From contig NZ_CP012069.2 in NCBI RefSeq assembly GCF_001189515.2, positions 930,001 to 994,000 of the forward strand: a DNA stretch of 64,000 nt, read 5' to 3'. The position numbers and the translations under genes were made by a program. Source of the stretch: Olsenella sp. oral taxon 807. Lineage in GTDB: Bacteria > Actinomycetota > Coriobacteriia > Coriobacteriales > Atopobiaceae. The notes below the pieces were generated by a model. The model worked only from the letters and a program-made list of their open reading frames with translations. It had not been told where the DNA came from and did not search any database. Shown in pieces: positions 10,635 through 42,930 of this stretch; positions within the stretch are counted from its first letter, which is position 1; each line of letters begins with the position of its first letter.

Positions 10635-11864
10635 GTGAGGCAAGACCAGAACCTGATGAGAGACGAACGCAAGCTGACACGCGAGCGGCGGAGGCGCAAG
10701 GTGCGTCGTAAGGGACGCTACGACGCACCCGATGGCCCCAGGCGCCACCGCTTGGACACTCGTAGACAACCAAGTTTCTCCTCGCGCAGTCTCGTATACC
10801 CTGCTAGGCGCTGTGCGAGGCTACTGCTTGTATGGATGGGACGTCTGTCACGCCTCCTTCGTTTGTACCTTAGGCGTTGCGCCAAATCGCTGCGTCTCTG
10901 GGCGTATCGCGCGCTCTCGTGGGTGATCGACCATCAACCGCGATCGTATGTGATCCTTGCGAGCGCCTTCCTCATTGTGGTTGCGCTGGGCTTGGGGTCG
11001 TGCGTACGATCGTGTGCTCACGTTTCCCCGCAGCAGCCTGAGAACCAGCCTGAGGACCAGCCTACCCACTCTGAGTCTGGCGGCGAGTCAAGCGGTGCTG
11101 AGCAGAGGACCTGGAGCTACCCCGCATCGCTGGATCCCTCCCTTGCTGACGAGCTCAACAGGCTTGGTAACGAGAACGAACAGGTGGCGGGCATCCTCGA
11201 TAACATGGGTGCCTACGCGCACATCGGCAATGGGGGTGAGTCGGCCGAGGCCGACCTCCTTAAGCTCCTGGCCAAGGAGCCGGCTGCCCGTGACTTCATC
11301 CAAGGTCTTCCCAGCAAGTATCCACAGGCCAAGGGGGAGGCCTATGACGAGACCGTGACGGCCGGGACGGCGCCTGTCCTCTATCAGTGGGACGCACGCT
11401 GGGCATACACCGAGTACTGTGGCAGGGACTTTGGGGCCACCGGCTGTTGTCCCACGGCCCTCTCGATGGTGTACATGGCGGTCACTGGTAAGGCTGACGT
11501 GACGCCCTACGTGATGGGGCAGCTTGCGACAAGTAAGGGGTACACGGATGACAGCTCGGGCACCTACGGCAACTTCGTCGACGTCGCCGCTAGGCATTAC
11601 AGGCTGGCTCACAGGGAGCTGGGCATCACTGTCGCTGATCTCGAGGATTATCTGGGCCGAGGCTACATCATGATCGCCAGTATGGGACCAGGCGAATTCT
11701 CGACCTCGGGTCACTTCATCGTCATCACTGGCAAGACCGCAGACGGCAATCTCATCATCCACGACCCGTACTCCAAGATCCACACCGAGAAAAGCTGGGA
11801 GCCGTCTACCATCGTCAGCCAGATGAAGCGTCTGCATGCCTTCAGGCTTCCCACGTCCACGTGA
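10635..11864 (+). CDS. Membrane-anchored C39-like cysteine peptidase
   Basis: Predicted type II membrane protein with an extracytoplasmic papain-like C39_2 domain. Layout: very basic cytoplasmic N-terminus (about residues 1-95, many Arg), one membrane segment at ~103-122 (VILASAFLIVVALGLG), a Pro/Gln/Ser-rich linker, then the catalytic domain from ~250. The likely nucleophile is in GATGCCPTALSM (Cys271/272) and the His in SGHFIVITG about 90 residues later, followed by IIHDPYS with the Asp/Asn position. The start is GTG 10635; an ATG at 10656 is an alternative. Substrate unknown, perhaps peptidoglycan-associated or peptide processing. Confidence 0.8.
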   Translation: MRQDQNLMRDERKLTRERRRRKVRRKGRYDAPDGPRRHRLDTRRQPSFSSRSLVYPARRCARLLLVWMGRLSRLLRLYLRRCAKSLRLWAYRALSWVIDHQPRSYVILASAFLIVVALGLGSCVRSCAHVSPQQPENQPEDQPTHSESGGESSGAEQRTWSYPASLDPSLADELNRLGNENEQVAGILDNMGAYAHIGNGGESAEADLLKLLAKEPAARDFIQGLPSKYPQAKGEAYDETVTAGTAPVLYQWDARWAYTEYCGRDFGATGCCPTALSMVYMAVTGKADVTPYVMGQLATSKGYTDDSSGTYGNFVDVAARHYRLAHRELGITVADLEDYLGRGYIMIASMGPGEFSTSGHFIVITGKTADGNLIIHDPYSKIHTEKSWEPSTIVSQMKRLHAFRLPTST

Positions 11865-12009
11865 GCCTCGCGCCAAGACGCCTCCTGCCAAGATTTGGTA
11901 ACACGACGGCGTGGCATCGGCCAGACGCCACGCCACATCGTCCAAATGCTATACCACATCATCAAGACGCCATACCAAGGCGCAGGAGTCCGCGTCTCGC
12001 TCTGAGTGC

Positions 12010-12157
12010 CACTCGATGTCACCGAGTGCACGATGCTCGCACCACTCGACGTTACCGAGTGGCGCAGAATCTCTCGTTACCTGCGCATTTGTGGCTCTTC
12101 GCACCACTCGACGTCATCGGGTGCACGATGCTCGCGCCACTCGATGCCACCGAGTGC
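12010..12157. repeat. Locus A: four short palindromes in two direct repeats
   Basis: Four copies of a stem CCACTCG-AYGYYAY-CGRGTGG-like palindrome lie at about 12010, 12042, 12104 and 12137. They come as two pairs about 95 bases apart, each pair joined by GTGCACGATGCTCGC. Each could form a small hairpin or bind a dimeric protein. Frames crossing this region are not credible genes. Confidence 0.8.
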
Positions 12158-12534
12158 GAAGCTACAAATCTGGCATGGTGGGCGAGGGACATATCATAGA
12201 AGTCGGCTTCCCAGATCGAGCCGACGACCCACCAACGTAGAAATGTAAGCAAACGACAGCCCTCCCGCCCCAAAGAATCATCTTGGGACGGCTCTGCGGT
12301 ACCTCAAGAGCGAAAGCCCTCCGAGTGCGACGGGAAGGTAGTGCTGCCACACGGGTCCCAGAGTCTGTGGCGAAAGTGACGCAGGGCAAACTTCAGCCTC
12401 AGACCCCGGGACCCTGCCTTAGCCTGAGTTCCCGGCACCTCCTGAGCCCACAACTGGCAGCCTGATGGTGTCTCGGCCCGGCCTAGGGCGCGCCATCAGC
12501 GAGACCCTCTGCTCAGACTGCGCCTTTTCGTGCG
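12158..12534. other. Gene-free stretch of locus A
   Basis: No credible gene. At 12406-12422 it holds one copy of a 17-base sequence (CCGGGACCCTGCCTTAG) found again at the end of the nfnB gene. At about 12512-12531 it holds a single motif (CAGACTGCGCCTTTTCGTG) resembling the repeat unit of locus B near 42 kb. Confidence 0.6.
12406..12422 (+). repeat. 17-bp direct repeat, copy 1
   Basis: CCGGGACCCTGCCTTAG occurs identically at 13780-13796, where it runs into the nfnB stop codon. The two copies bracket the 101-bp element, the palindrome array and the transposase remnant. Confidence 0.75.
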
Positions 12535-12635
12535 GTCAGCCCCAGGCCGAGGCCTGCGGGCCTCGGCGCAACCCGCCCCTGCGGCTTGGCGGGCGGTTGC
12601 CCGAGCGCATTTGCCCAGTTGGGCCACTCTCCAAT
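12535..12635 (-). ncRNA. 101-bp structured element, copy A (candidate RNA)
   Basis: Read on the minus strand, this 101-base segment aligns end to end, without net length change and at roughly 80% identity, with 42714-42814. The shared landmarks are TGGCCCAACTGGGCAAATGC, then a GC-rich stem GCAACC...GGTTGC, then GCGCC and CCTCGG. Within the stem the two copies differ by changes that preserve pairing (G-C here, C-G there), which points to a conserved RNA or DNA fold. No reading frame is conserved. Confidence 0.55.
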
Positions 12636-12724
12636 CGGCGTGACGGCTGCGGGTCCGGAGTCCGTCCCGGCCAGCACCGCCACTCGCCTCTGATCGTGCC
12701 GATACGGTACGCTCGACGTAGATT

Positions 12725-13106
12725 GGCAGTGTGCGGCGTGCCGCCCAGTACGCTCACCACCGAGTGGCAGTGTGAGTTGCACTGCCACTCGCCCCCGAAC
12801 GTACCGGACGCACTGCCACTCGACCCTGAACGTGCCGTCCCGTACGTTCACCACCGAGTGGCAGTGTACGGTGCGCTGCCCAGCACGCTCGATGCCGAGT
12901 GGCAGTGTACGGCATGCCGCCCAGCGCGCTCACCACCGAGTGGCAGTGTGAGTTGCACTGCCACTCGCCTCTGAACGTACCGGACGCACTGCCACTCGGC
13001 CCTGATCGTACCAATGCGGTACGCTCGATGTCGAGTGGCAGTGAGGATGGCACTGCCACTCGACCCTGAACGTTCCGTCTCGTACGTTCACCGACGAGTG
13101 GCAGTG
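12725..13106. repeat. Locus A: array of alternating inverted repeats
   Basis: The 12-base motif CGAGTGGCAGTG and its complement CACTGCCACTCG alternate many times. Two 56-bp units (12811-12866 and 13051-13106) pair end to end with an inner AACGT/ACGTT stem. Two 31-bp units (12761-12791 and 12937-12967) are the reverse hairpin with a TGAGTTG loop. Intervening copies sit before GCYGCCCAGYRCGCTC. The whole block can fold into cruciforms; there is no spacer diversity as in CRISPR. Confidence 0.85.
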
Positions 13107-13125
13107 TACGGTGTGCCGTCAGGTG

Positions 13126-13689
13126 AGGGTTATCAACGTGTTCCACATGCTCGCTGACCTTCTGAGAGGCCATCCTGGCCCTAGAGCAGGGGAGCCTCGC
13201 GTAGGTGAGCTCCCACCAGTCCCCGGCGTGGCGGTCGGTGAGGCCGGCGGGCACGTAGAACGCCAGCAGCGCCCGCACCGTGTCGGGCTCGGCGTGGCCG
13301 CACGCGTCGGCGCAGGTCATCAGCCCGCCCGATCTCAGGAACGAGCCCGGCGGGAACGCGTCGCCGAACGACACGACGAGCGCCGTGCCTGCGGCGCGGG
13401 CGTTGCGCCTCCTCGGCCCCTCGACGCCCTCCGGCGCGGGCCCGAACTCACCCGTCGCCAGGTCGTAGGGGAACATCCCCCGCTCCCGGCTCCGGTACAC
13501 CCCGCGCGCCCTGTCCACGACCCGTCCCAGGTATACGCGGTCCTCCTTCGTGACCCTGGCGCCCCCTGCGGACCTGACGACTGTCGCGCGCCCGCTGCCG
13601 CCCGCGACGTCGCGGGCGGCGCACGTCCCCACCTCCCGTGGGATGGGTGAGGGCCTCATGCCACGTGGCGCCGGACGTGGCCGCCGCAC
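13126..13689 (-). pseudogene. Transposase remnant, IS1634-like N-terminal domain
   Basis: On the minus strand a frame encodes DRVYLGRV near its start, then FGDAFPPGSFLRSGGL, PDTVRALLAFYV and a block reading DWWELTYARLPCSRARMASQ. This pattern is the N-terminal region of IS1634/IS4-superfamily transposases, and it aligns in order with the intact element at 22.9 kb (LSFLGADGVAGCLREALPDD ... YQRALAHVTHGVVRDGS). The catalytic DDE domain is absent: similarity ends near 13126, where the frame runs into the palindrome array. The true start is uncertain. Confidence 0.7.
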
Positions 13690-13717
13690 GCAAGCGACGG
13701 CCCAGATATTTCGGCAG

Positions 13718-13764
13718 CTGGGCGCAGGCCCTCGGGGCTGGCGGCGATCCGGGTCTGCGCCCAG
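13718..13764 (-). other. Inverted repeat downstream of nfnB
   Basis: CTGGGCGCAG and CTGCGCCCAG form perfect 10-bp arms around a 27-base GC-rich loop, about 30 bases past the nfnB stop. It may contribute to 3'-end formation of the nfnA-nfnB transcript, but no T-run follows. Confidence 0.4.
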
Positions 13765-13779
13765 TGGACTAAGGAAGTG

Positions 13780-13796
13780 CCGGGACCCTGCCTTAG
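13780..13796 (+). repeat. 17-bp direct repeat, copy 2
   Basis: Second copy of CCGGGACCCTGCCTTAG; its end covers the stop codon of nfnB read on the minus strand. See 12406-12422. Confidence 0.75.
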
Positions 13797-22695: not shown

Positions 22696-22773
22696 CGCGT
22701 GCCCCTTTCCTGTTGCATGCGTCACATGAGCAGGCGCAGATCTTCTAAGAAGAATAAGCCCTAGTTCTTTCTG

Positions 22774-24533
22774 ATTGTAGAACTACCGCCTGATCAAACC
22801 AAAGAAAATCGAGAAAATCGCAGGTCGAGGCCCCAAGGGGCCTCTCTTGTGCTATATTATATGTAGTGCTACTTACTACTTCCTGTGTGGCACGGGAGGC
22901 GACCGGGATGCCGTTCATAAAGGTGCAGAAGCTGGTCAGGGACGAGTCCGGCGCAATCAGGAGCGGGTCCGCCGCCGTGGTCGACACGTCGTACGTGCGC
23001 GGCGCCAAGTACCACTCGGCGCAGGCGGTGCGCGAGAGGCTGGGCAAGGTCGTCTGGCTCGCGGACGACAGGCGCTCGGGCGTGTTCGCGTCACCGACGC
23101 GCGGCCTGGTGGAGTACGACGCGGACGCCGACGGATTCGCGCCGGTGGCCAAGGGCGACGAGCGGCTGGCGAACACGGGCGCGTTCCCCGAGCCGCCGCG
23201 GCACCTGGAGCTCGGCCCCGAGCACCTGCTGCTGTCGTTCCTGGGCGCCGATGGGGTCGCGGGGTGCCTCAGGGAGGCGCTCCCCGACGACCGGTCCTAC
23301 CAGCGCGCCCTCGCCCACGTCACGCACGGCGTGGTGCGGGACGGGAGCCGCGAGACCTGCGACAACATGGTGGCCAGGTCCTTCGCGGCTCTGGCGCTGC
23401 CGGGCGTGCCGCCCGCGTCGCTGAGATCGGACACGGCGTTCTTCTCGGCGATGGGCGCCGACGGGGCGAAGGTCGCGTTCTTCAGGGCGTTCGCCAGGCT
23501 CATGAGGAGGACGAAGCCCGGCTTCGGCCGCGCATGCTACGTGGACTCCACCCCGCTCCCGAACGACGCGGTCGACAACCCGCTCAACGCCCTCTGCAGC
23601 CACGGGCTGAGGGGCGCGGCGGTCCAGATGCGCCTCGCGCTCGTGCTCGACGAGACGACGGGGCTGCCCGTCTGGTACGAGGTCGTGCCCGGCAACGTAC
23701 TTGACCTCTCGACCATAAAGACCGTGATGGGCGACGTCCTCGCCACGCTCGGCATCGAGGTCGTAACCGCGGTCCTCGACGCGGGCTACGCGTCGCGCGA
23801 GCTGCTCGAGGCCTTCTCCGAGGGCGAGAGGGACGTGCTGGTCAGGATGCCGGCGAGGAGGGGGTACCCGTACCGCGAGCTCTGGCGGGGCGTCCGCTCT
23901 CTGATCGGCAAGGGCAAGTACGCGATCACGCGCTCCGGCCACCTCTACTTCGCCAGGAGGCGCGACGTCGAGGTGCAGGGCGTGAGGCTGCACTGCTACG
24001 TCTACGTGGACCAGACCAACGCCACGCCGCGCTTCGCCAGGTGGCTGGACAAGAACCAGGAGAGGTTCGACGGGATGTCGCTCGCCGAGAAGGACTGGGA
24101 GACCGTGCGGCAGGGCTACTTCGTGCTGATGTCCACCAAGGTCGCGACGCCCCGCGAGATCCTGGACGAGTACTTCTGCCGCACCGAGATCGAGGGCGTC
24201 TTCAAGACCAGCAAGGACTACCTGGGCCTGCTGCCGCTGCGCAAGTGGAGCGACCTCACCGTGCGCGGCAAGATCCTCGCCGACATCATCGGCACCATCG
24301 TGGTGCTCAGGATGCGCAAGGCGCTCGCCGGGGCCGACGTCTCCCTCACCGAGGTATGGGGCAAGGCCAGGTCGCTGTCCTGCTACACCAACGCCGACGG
24401 CAGGGTCGTGGTCGAGACGCCGTCGAGGCAGGTCCGCGAGTACTACAAGGCGCTCGGGGTGAAGGTGCCCTCGTCAATCGACGTCAGGGAATTCGACCGT
24501 GACGTCCTCGGCCTGGAGCTGTAGTTCTACAAT
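22774..24533 (+). mobile_element. Complete insertion sequence, IS1634/IS4-like
   Basis: About 1.76 kb bounded by perfect 13-bp terminal inverted repeats: ATTGTAGAACTAC (22774-22786) and GTAGTTCTACAAT (24521-24533). The right repeat covers the transposase stop codon. Inside the left end, a GAGGCCCC-AA-GGGGCCTC hairpin (22827-22844) precedes the transposase and would block read-through transcription from outside. No clear target-site duplication is visible. Confidence 0.88.
22908..24524 (+). CDS. DDE transposase of the IS element
   Basis: A 538-residue transposase. The N-terminal domain matches the remnant at 13.1-13.7 kb. The catalytic positions are readable as YVDSTPL (Asp near 212), AVLDAGYASRELLE (Asp near 291) and CRTEIEGVFKTSKDYLGL (Glu near 427), in the IS1634/IS4-superfamily arrangement. 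ATG 22908 is preceded by GGGAGG; the earlier in-frame ATG at 22866 lacks a site. Codon use is extremely G/C at third positions with many AGG Arg codons, unlike flanking genes. Confidence 0.9.
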   Translation: MPFIKVQKLVRDESGAIRSGSAAVVDTSYVRGAKYHSAQAVRERLGKVVWLADDRRSGVFASPTRGLVEYDADADGFAPVAKGDERLANTGAFPEPPRHLELGPEHLLLSFLGADGVAGCLREALPDDRSYQRALAHVTHGVVRDGSRETCDNMVARSFAALALPGVPPASLRSDTAFFSAMGADGAKVAFFRAFARLMRRTKPGFGRACYVDSTPLPNDAVDNPLNALCSHGLRGAAVQMRLALVLDETTGLPVWYEVVPGNVLDLSTIKTVMGDVLATLGIEVVTAVLDAGYASRELLEAFSEGERDVLVRMPARRGYPYRELWRGVRSLIGKGKYAITRSGHLYFARRRDVEVQGVRLHCYVYVDQTNATPRFARWLDKNQERFDGMSLAEKDWETVRQGYFVLMSTKVATPREILDEYFCRTEIEGVFKTSKDYLGLLPLRKWSDLTVRGKILADIIGTIVVLRMRKALAGADVSLTEVWGKARSLSCYTNADGRVVVETPSRQVREYYKALGVKVPSSIDVREFDRDVLGLEL

Positions 24534-24665
24534 TAGCGTCATCTAGGGATAAGTGTACGGCATTCGAAGCTCCATCATGAGCATCCGAGTACATGCGCGT
24601 TCTCATCCTTAGCCGGTGAGTTGATCTTTACTTCCCCGGAGATTGCCTGCATGCTCCAAGGGAAA

Positions 24666-41585: not shown

Positions 41586-42172
41586 CAAAGGTCCCCTCTC
41601 GTCCGTCCCCTGCGCAGCAGCTGTCGCCCAGACGCTCGCAGCTGTGATAGAAGGCCCACGTCGCGCCGGAAGAGGTCTCCCGATGCCCTGTGCGCCGCGT
41701 CCCGCGCGCCGCCCAACTGGTGCCGGACGACATCGCCCGCCGCCCACAGGTATTCTATCATGCTTCTCTCGATTGCTCGCCAGGCCCCGCCGTCCTCGTG
41801 CGTCACGGGACCTGTGGCGCCCTTTGCACGGCAGCCTCTCGCGGATGTACCCCTGTCATGCCACAATCATGGGGTGGAAAGGCCGATGTCGCCACCATAT
41901 AGTTCGAAGACTCCCTGTCAGGAGATGATGCGAAATGCCTTTCCCCAAGAATGAAGTCCGCAAGGTGTGCATGCACGATACCCGAGCGCTTCTGTGGGAG
42001 CGATCACACAGCAGATGCTTCGGGTATCTTTCCGAGATCCTCTCCAGCGATCTTATGATCGCAGGTAATACACCTCAGCCAAGTCGCAGGAGCACCCAAC
42101 GAAGCAGTACGTGGGATAGTGACGCGCACCGTGGTGGCACACAAAGCGCGTCCTTCCGTGACGTCGCTGGCT
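41586..42172. other. Poorly coding gap between purO and locus B
   Basis: A minus-strand frame of 58-93 codons ends in TGA overlapping the purO ATG (TGATG), so it could be a coupled leader, but no product is recognised. A plus-strand frame from ATG 41935 (MPFPKNEVRKVCMHDTRALL), with CAGGAG upstream, runs into locus B after about 75 codons and may be the stub of a disrupted gene. Confidence 0.35.
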
Positions 42173-42660
42173 CAGAATGCGCTTTTTCGTCGACCCGCGA
42201 TCCCAGAGTGCGCTTTTCCGTAGAATGCGCCTTTTCTGACCTGCGCAAACGTCGAGTCGTCTCACGGAAAACCGCATTCTGTGCGTTGGGCCTCACGTAA
42301 AAGCGCATTCTGTCCCCGGGCCTTCACGGAAAACCGCACTCTTCACCCGCGTGGCCTTCCAGAGTGCGCTTTTCCGTTGACTCCAACCCCCAGAGTGCGC
42401 TTTTCCGTAAAGTGCGCCTTTTCTGACCTGCGCAAACGTCGAGTCGTCTCACGGAAAAGCGCAGTCTGCACGTTGAGTCTCACGGAAAAGCGCATTCTGC
42501 ACGTTGGGCCTCACGGAAAAGCGCATTCTGCACGTTGAGTCTCACGGAAAAGCGCATTCTGCACGTTGGACCTCACGTAAAAGCGCACTCTGGCCCAACG
42601 TCTCACGGAAAAGTGCAGTTTGCAGCCCCCACGTCGCGCAGACTGCGTCTTTCGGTCACG
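42173..42660. repeat. Locus B: 31-bp tandem and inverted repeat array
   Basis: Two opposing motifs alternate in blocks: forward AGAGTGCGCTTTTCCGT (at 42204, 42360, 42391 and diverged copies) and reverse CTCACGGAAAAGCGCATTCT. The reverse units recur every 31 bases (42448, 42479, 42510, 42541, 42572, then 42602; also 42261, 42292, 42323) with a shared GCACGTTGRGY tail. A 187-bp block (from 42204) is itself duplicated (from 42391). Repeats lack unique spacers. Confidence 0.88.
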
Positions 42661-42713
42661 TCGCCGCCTGGGAGGCGTGGGGCGCGCAACCCCCCGCCAG
42701 GCTGCGGGGCACT

Positions 42714-42814
42714 ATGGAAAATGGCCCAACTGGGCAAATGCGTCCGAGCAACCCCCCGCCAGGCTGCGGGGGGGGGTTGCGCCAGAGTCCGCAAGCCTCG
42801 GTTTGGAGCCTGAC
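42714..42814 (+). ncRNA. 101-bp structured element, copy B (candidate RNA)
   Basis: Same-length homologue of 12535-12635 on the opposite strand: TGGCCCAACTGGGCAAATGC, a long GC stem GCAACCCCCCGC...GCGGGGGGGGGTTGC, GCGCC and GCCTCGG. The first half of its stem is also duplicated at 42689-42710. It lies at the edge of the locus B repeats, exactly as copy A lies at the edge of the locus A repeats. Confidence 0.55.
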
Positions 42815-42930
42815 TTCTGCCCGGGTGGCGCCGATAAGGACGGACACGCCTCGTGACGCTATGTTTCCAATTCGGTGAAACATCGCCTTTTGCGCCGTTG
42901 GGCTACCTCCCTGTGCTAGTCTTTGTCCAT

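Follow-up and report, generated by a model that had tools for sequence, protein, structure and literature searches.

Within the 64,000-nucleotide stretch analysed here (the window), two segments of exactly 101 bp resemble each other in opposite orientation: copy A, at 12535-12635 on the minus strand, and copy B, at 42714-42814 on the plus strand. Each lies at the edge of a repeat array, and the repeats of the two arrays differ. The question raised by this locus is what kind of element the two segments belong to. A preliminary description had proposed a constant, structured core to which locus-specific repeats are attached. Our verdict is that they belong to a new family of intergenic mosaic repeats that is restricted to one species, has a NIME/BIME-like layout and has partly spread as an IS1634-type MITE. 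The reading that we favour, with a rough probability of 0.68, is that both segments are pieces of this non-coding mosaic, that its IS-ended copies would have spread through a transposase acting in trans, and that its motif would be recognised by a protein. Direct reading covered about one tenth of the chromosome, and the genome-wide counts given below come from genome searches.

The two segments are fragments of a longer element

The homology of the two segments was borne out, with 81% identity in a BLAST search of the copy A region against its own genome and an alignment score of 106, compared with a maximum of 30 among 300 dinucleotide shuffles. Both contain TGGCCCAACTGGGCAAATGC, as had been described, and the lack of a conserved reading frame also stood, with C- and G-run lengths that differ between the copies and not by multiples of three. 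The 101 bp, taken earlier as the unit, are instead the stretch that two truncated copies of a ~193-bp element have in common, and their equal length is accidental. Copy A begins mid-element and lacks the left half, while copy B ends before the right motif and lacks the right end.

A search of the genome with these segments recovered many further loci, which excludes the possibility that only two copies exist. The copy B query gave ~43 strong matches, mostly of 150-178 bp and 81-89% identity, to which the copy A query added a few. After 39 loci had been fetched and the matches merged, 51 recognisable cores were identified in the 3.2-Mb genome. In an alignment of 41 complete copies, the ~193-bp element is bounded by CAGANTGCGCYTTTCCGTG and CACGGAAARGCGCANTCTG, which are inverted 19-bp motifs, and the mean column identity is 84%. 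Subfamily I, comprising roughly half of the cores, is marked by GCCGCCCGGGAGGCG... with AGGCCTCGGCCTGGGG, and subfamily II by GCGGCGCCCGGGAGG... with AGATCTCGGTTCGGAG. The modular family that had been suspected is therefore real and bigger than supposed, as one genome holds 931 motifs alongside ~50 cores and ~51 modules with a short centre. Its description as a core with locus-specific repeats was wrong: the same 19-bp motif is present on at least one side in 49 of the 51 cores and on both sides in 41. Another repeat accompanies copy A and its one sister (C1:871689-871888, 90% identical across 200 bp) because both are chimeras. A palindromic repeat, GCAACAGTGTACACAAGTGCC...TGTACACTCTTGCG, was also observed beside or inside core elements (L089 near 3110, L069 near 3400, L090 near 2720 and 3300).

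Table 1. Features of the copy A and copy B loci (positions in the window).
Feature	Position	Strand	Evidence
Non-autonomous IS1634-like derivative holding copy A, 1,369 bp	12423..13791	-	blastn to C1:2242604-2244337; terminal inverted repeats
IS right end (IS query positions 1689-1738)	12423..12472	-	92% identity, blastn
19-bp motif CAGACTGCGCCTTTTCGTG, bounding the core unit on its right	12514..12532	-	
Copy A, a ~193-bp core reduced to its right half	12535..12635	-	BLAST, alignment
Second-family repeat array, CGAGTGGCAGTG/CACTGCCACTCG	12675..13106	.	~307 exact copies in genome
IS left ~640 bp: terminal repeat and N-terminal part of a truncated transposase gene	13151..13786	-	87% identity
Array B, forward and reverse 19-bp motifs, direct ones 31 bp apart	42142..42657	.	
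Two short centres in array B	42223-42262 and 42410-42449		
Degenerate 19-bp motif, left boundary of the long core	42639..42657	-	
Long core copy B, truncated before the right boundary motif; includes 42714-42814	42658..42815	+	

A species-restricted motif arranged with strict spacing

With up to two mismatches allowed, the 19-bp motif CACGGAAARGCGCANTCTG occurs 931 times in the genome (473 forward and 458 reverse), and the reversed-pattern control gave 0. The motif is not palindromic, being self-complementary at 6 of its 19 positions. A 17-bp version with one mismatch was found 0-1 times in each of 79 relatives, four congeners included. The exact 21-mer pattern had no match in 84,980 species genomes and the 19-mer pattern had none in IMG/VR, two collections from which near-identical records may be left out. 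Searches of phage, plasmid and viral contigs for the repeat gave no match, and 12-mer and spacing scans of two congeners (400 kb and 159 kb) found no similar repeats. The motif is essentially absent from relatives, and the repeat family is species-restricted. In the sample from congener G004 (L206-L225), a strong 65-66-bp direct periodicity was observed, possibly a CRISPR array.

The family is assembled from four building blocks: the 19-bp motif, 12-bp variable spacers that set direct motifs 31 bp apart, a 40-bp short centre and a ~156-bp long centre (the core). Spacing follows strict rules across the fetched loci, with same-orientation neighbours at 31 bp and convergent pairs at 35 bp. Divergent pairs are separated by 59 bp (often 17+42) around the short centre CCTGSGCAAACGTGG and by ~175 bp around the long core. 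The short centre with its flanking motifs gave ~51 strong genome matches, and the long core holds a box related to it, CAACTGGGCAAATGCG. Copy B represents the end of such a 19-bp-motif array, upstream of argJ, and no IS terminal repeat was found around 42 kb. Using genes called by a simple codon-usage script, 44 arrays were placed in intergenic gaps, with overlaps to one well-scored and one weak call. The gaps comprised 14 convergent, 9 divergent and 19 tandem cases, and an orientation preference was not clear.

The spacers are far more variable than the motif, with 112 different sequences among 149. Spacers from different loci match at 5.2 of 12 letters on average, and several motif positions are more than 97% constant. 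In three tandem units of L078 (C1:1212.8-1214.3 kb), the differences amounted to 69/351 in the spacers (20%), 14/372 in the motifs and 16/471 in the cores (3-4%), figures that represent three pairwise comparisons and are not independent. Motif and core diverge less than spacers in most tandem duplicates examined; the contrast is weaker at the other duplicated loci, and L063 displays none. The tandem-unit contrast suggests that the sequence itself is conserved, and gene conversion could be an alternative source of the low motif divergence.

Copy A and subfamily I within an IS1634-like element

The IS ends at copy A enclose half a core, a single copy of the 19-bp motif and an array belonging to the second family, CACTGCCACTCG. 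The CAGACTGCGCCTTTTCGTG motif reported beside copy A is real, and the two loci appeared to carry different repeats because the copy A half core is fused to a second dispersed family. The transposase remnant is 68% identical to residues 2-219 of P0001. CTTAG at 12418-12422 and 13792-13796 flanks the element, a match that needs a right end shorter by one base. The second family, with 0-5 copies in relatives (background level), has spacings of 31, 41 and 105 bp. It was found at C1:917.9 kb, 924.0 kb, 1344.0 kb, 1456.6 kb and many other loci besides the array in the window. Nearby, window 11915-12160 contains CACTCGATGTCACCGAGTG-type short repeats and a 21-bp tandem repeat, downstream of a gene ending at 11864.

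Two full-length copies of the IS (1.72-1.73 kb) with open transposase frames are present in the genome. One (C1:2242604-2244337, 1.73 kb) encodes a 541-residue transposase and has TTTAA on either side, and the other (C1:920867-922588) has CTAAA on either side. The 541-aa transposase matches Pfam DDE_Tnp_1, and its best NCBIfam match is IS1634 (NF033559) at 75 bits, under the cut-off of 100; the element is therefore named IS1634-like. When the two full-length copies were compared (L160:1068-2789 and L161:1005-2738, L161 being the reference), 73 A/T-to-G/C transitions were counted against 5 in the opposite direction, along with 33 transversions. The corresponding transition ratios in partial copies were 45:17, 27:6 and 30:38. 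These counts possibly mean that mutation in decaying repeats is strongly biased from AT to GC, with the direction unpolarised.

Subfamily I runs rightward into CAGTCTGGGCAGAGGGCCTCGCTGATGG...CACCATCAGGCTGCCAGTTGTGGGCTAAGGAGGTGCCGGGAACTCAGG and leftward into TTCCCGGCACTTCCTTAGCCCGCTGGACACAGG, both of which are ends of the 1.73-kb IS, and several of its cores stand between the terminal repeats of the IS1634-like element. In five elements tested by blastn, the IS right end spans 51-66 bp and the left end 79-199 bp. Exact 5-bp flanks (CTCAA and CTTAC) were identified at two core-bearing elements, C1:1890300-1890889 and C1:2529006-2529571; two more match at 4 of 5 positions, and others do not match. 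Judged by sequence, subfamily I and copy A have the features that define a MITE of the IS1634-like element. No IS ends were found in subfamily II. The whole family as one IS MITE was rejected on the ground that IS ends are missing in subfamily II and copy B.

Another insertion sequence of IS1634 type lies at window 22759-24548; its ends are CCCTAG...CTAGGG, and it contains an open frame of 576 codons. It has ~10 equal-scoring genome matches, six of which were read and are nearly identical, so it was probably recently active. Some matches of its transposase lie near arrays, and the element was considered as the parent of the motif and rejected: the ends of six copies carry CCCTAGTTCT and not the motif.

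Covariation and folding of the core

The suggestion that the core is a constant RNA structure, in which differences between copies keep pairing, was not supported. Across five helices (terminal motifs, both GC-rich hairpins, GCYCAACTGGGC), the covariation score was 0.069, as it was in shuffles (0.069), and the proportion of paired cells was 92.9% in both cases. There was no excess of pairing over shuffled partners. A family of structured non-coding RNAs, with repeat tails specific to each locus, is very improbable, even though conserved GC-rich stems can be drawn and folding far exceeded that of shuffles in 2 of the 11 cores tested (z < -4); most single-copy z-scores were near -1. In addition to the covariation result, 28 of 41 copies have no base pair at the variable position of the terminal pairing, and neither array B nor its core contained a sigma-70-like promoter match. 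No Rfam family was matched in the gathering scan, and a permissive scan of locus A returned just weak microRNA matches, far under the cut-offs.

The convergent dyads point in the same direction, with a mean of 3.2 mismatches versus 2.7 with shuffled partners, and 500 of 500 shuffles paired at least as well. The dyads pair worse than shuffles, and well-matched palindromes are therefore under-represented, which counts against the hairpin as a conserved feature. The family looks like mobile "mosaic" DNA and not like an RNA gene.

Spread and maintenance of the family

Under the favoured reading of a mobile intergenic mosaic, the IS-ended copies, copy A among them, would have been spread by the IS1634-like transposase acting in trans. 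Unequal recombination of units of 31 bp and ~428 bp may lengthen the arrays locally. Constancy of the 19-bp motif would be due to recognition by a sequence-specific DNA-binding protein acting on double-stranded DNA, most likely a transposase or recombinase. The trans-mobilisation route would cover the IS-ended copies; against the reading stands that IS ends are lacking in subfamily II and copy B, and that inspection by eye of motif-only arrays revealed no target duplications beside their outermost motifs. In a more speculative and unlikely reading, the 931 motifs could be phased docking arrays for a lineage-specific DNA-binding protein or multi-site transposase, which would assemble on modules of inward motifs around a centre, in a layout resembling the multiple end sites of Tn7-like elements, and would have spread through the chromosome of one species without palindromes.

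A rival explanation, which we regard as quite unlikely, holds that the arrays are chromosomal binding platforms for a nucleoid or regulatory protein, selected by the host as has been proposed for BIMEs, with mobility incidental. The 31-bp spacing is near three helical turns, the motif is constant while the spacers vary, sites occur all round the chromosome, and spacings of 31 and 41 bp recur in the second family. However, absence from four congeners implies that such a platform is not needed by the genus, and the motifs show no clear preference in orientation relative to genes and none in strand (473 vs 458). Amplification of REP/BIME-type repeats by a RAYT-type Y1 transposase would suit the copy number, the alternating-orientation clusters and the species restriction, all of which fit BIMEs (PMC2817692). 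Two Y1_Tnp matches are indeed present in the genome. This origin is nevertheless highly unlikely given the non-palindromic motif; the nearer match lies ~1.8 kb from an array, and both resemble decayed IS200-type frames, long and decayed-looking (L128, C1:1897213-1897560; L129, C1:2547829-2548131). Among the motif sites listed, none were seen flanking a Y1 gene at either match. Constant repeats alternating with variable spacers of constant length also recall a CRISPR-like array with 12-bp spacers, an interpretation that can hardly be true: both orientations occur inside one array, spacers within an array are related (CACGTTGAGTCT, CACGTTGGGCCT) and differ by point changes between tandem units, and the arrays are spread across many loci.

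Comparison with known repeat families

The mobile mosaic inferred here adds a well-defined family of intergenic repeats from an actinobacterial lineage, probably within Coriobacteriia. For one protein of the window, the closest named relatives come from an uncultured Olsenella, an Atopobiaceae MAG and a Bifidobacterium, each with 41% identity. The family also raises a testable question, namely which protein recognises a 19-bp motif that one species carries in such abundance and its congeners lack. Several known systems share parts of this organisation. Correia repeat enclosed elements consist of a ~104-157-bp core between 26-bp inverted repeats in more than 100 copies (PMC9778887). The family described here resembles them in this, but its boundary motif also builds long arrays with variable spacers. 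With MITEs of IS1634/IS4 type, subfamily I and copy A share terminal repeats, 5-bp flanks, the lack of an intact transposase and an apparent parent in the genome; however, the interior is mostly repeat mosaic and not IS, and subfamily II and copy B are without IS ends.

BIMEs, composed of REP palindromes and associated with RAYT, consist of short repeats placed at regular intervals and in alternating orientation; they are restricted to a species and present in more than 100 copies (PMC2817692), and these features recur here. The spacing grammar is unlike that of REP/BIME, since the unit is non-palindromic and the dyads are less complementary than shuffled partners, and no intact motif-flanked RAYT was found among the motif sites listed. 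In NIMEs (dRS3 and RS elements), inverted repeats of ~20 bp number in the hundreds and flank repeat blocks of 50-150 bp, clustered between genes within a single genus (PMC9778887). The same layout was found here, with ~20-bp inverted repeats, 50-150-bp blocks, intergenic location and hundreds of copies. The dRS3 unit is the palindrome ATTCCC(N)8GGGAAT, whereas the motif CACGGAAARGCGCANTCTG is non-palindromic and unrelated in sequence, and direct 31-bp runs are common here, unlike in NIMEs. Among these systems, the layout of the family is closest to NIMEs and BIMEs.
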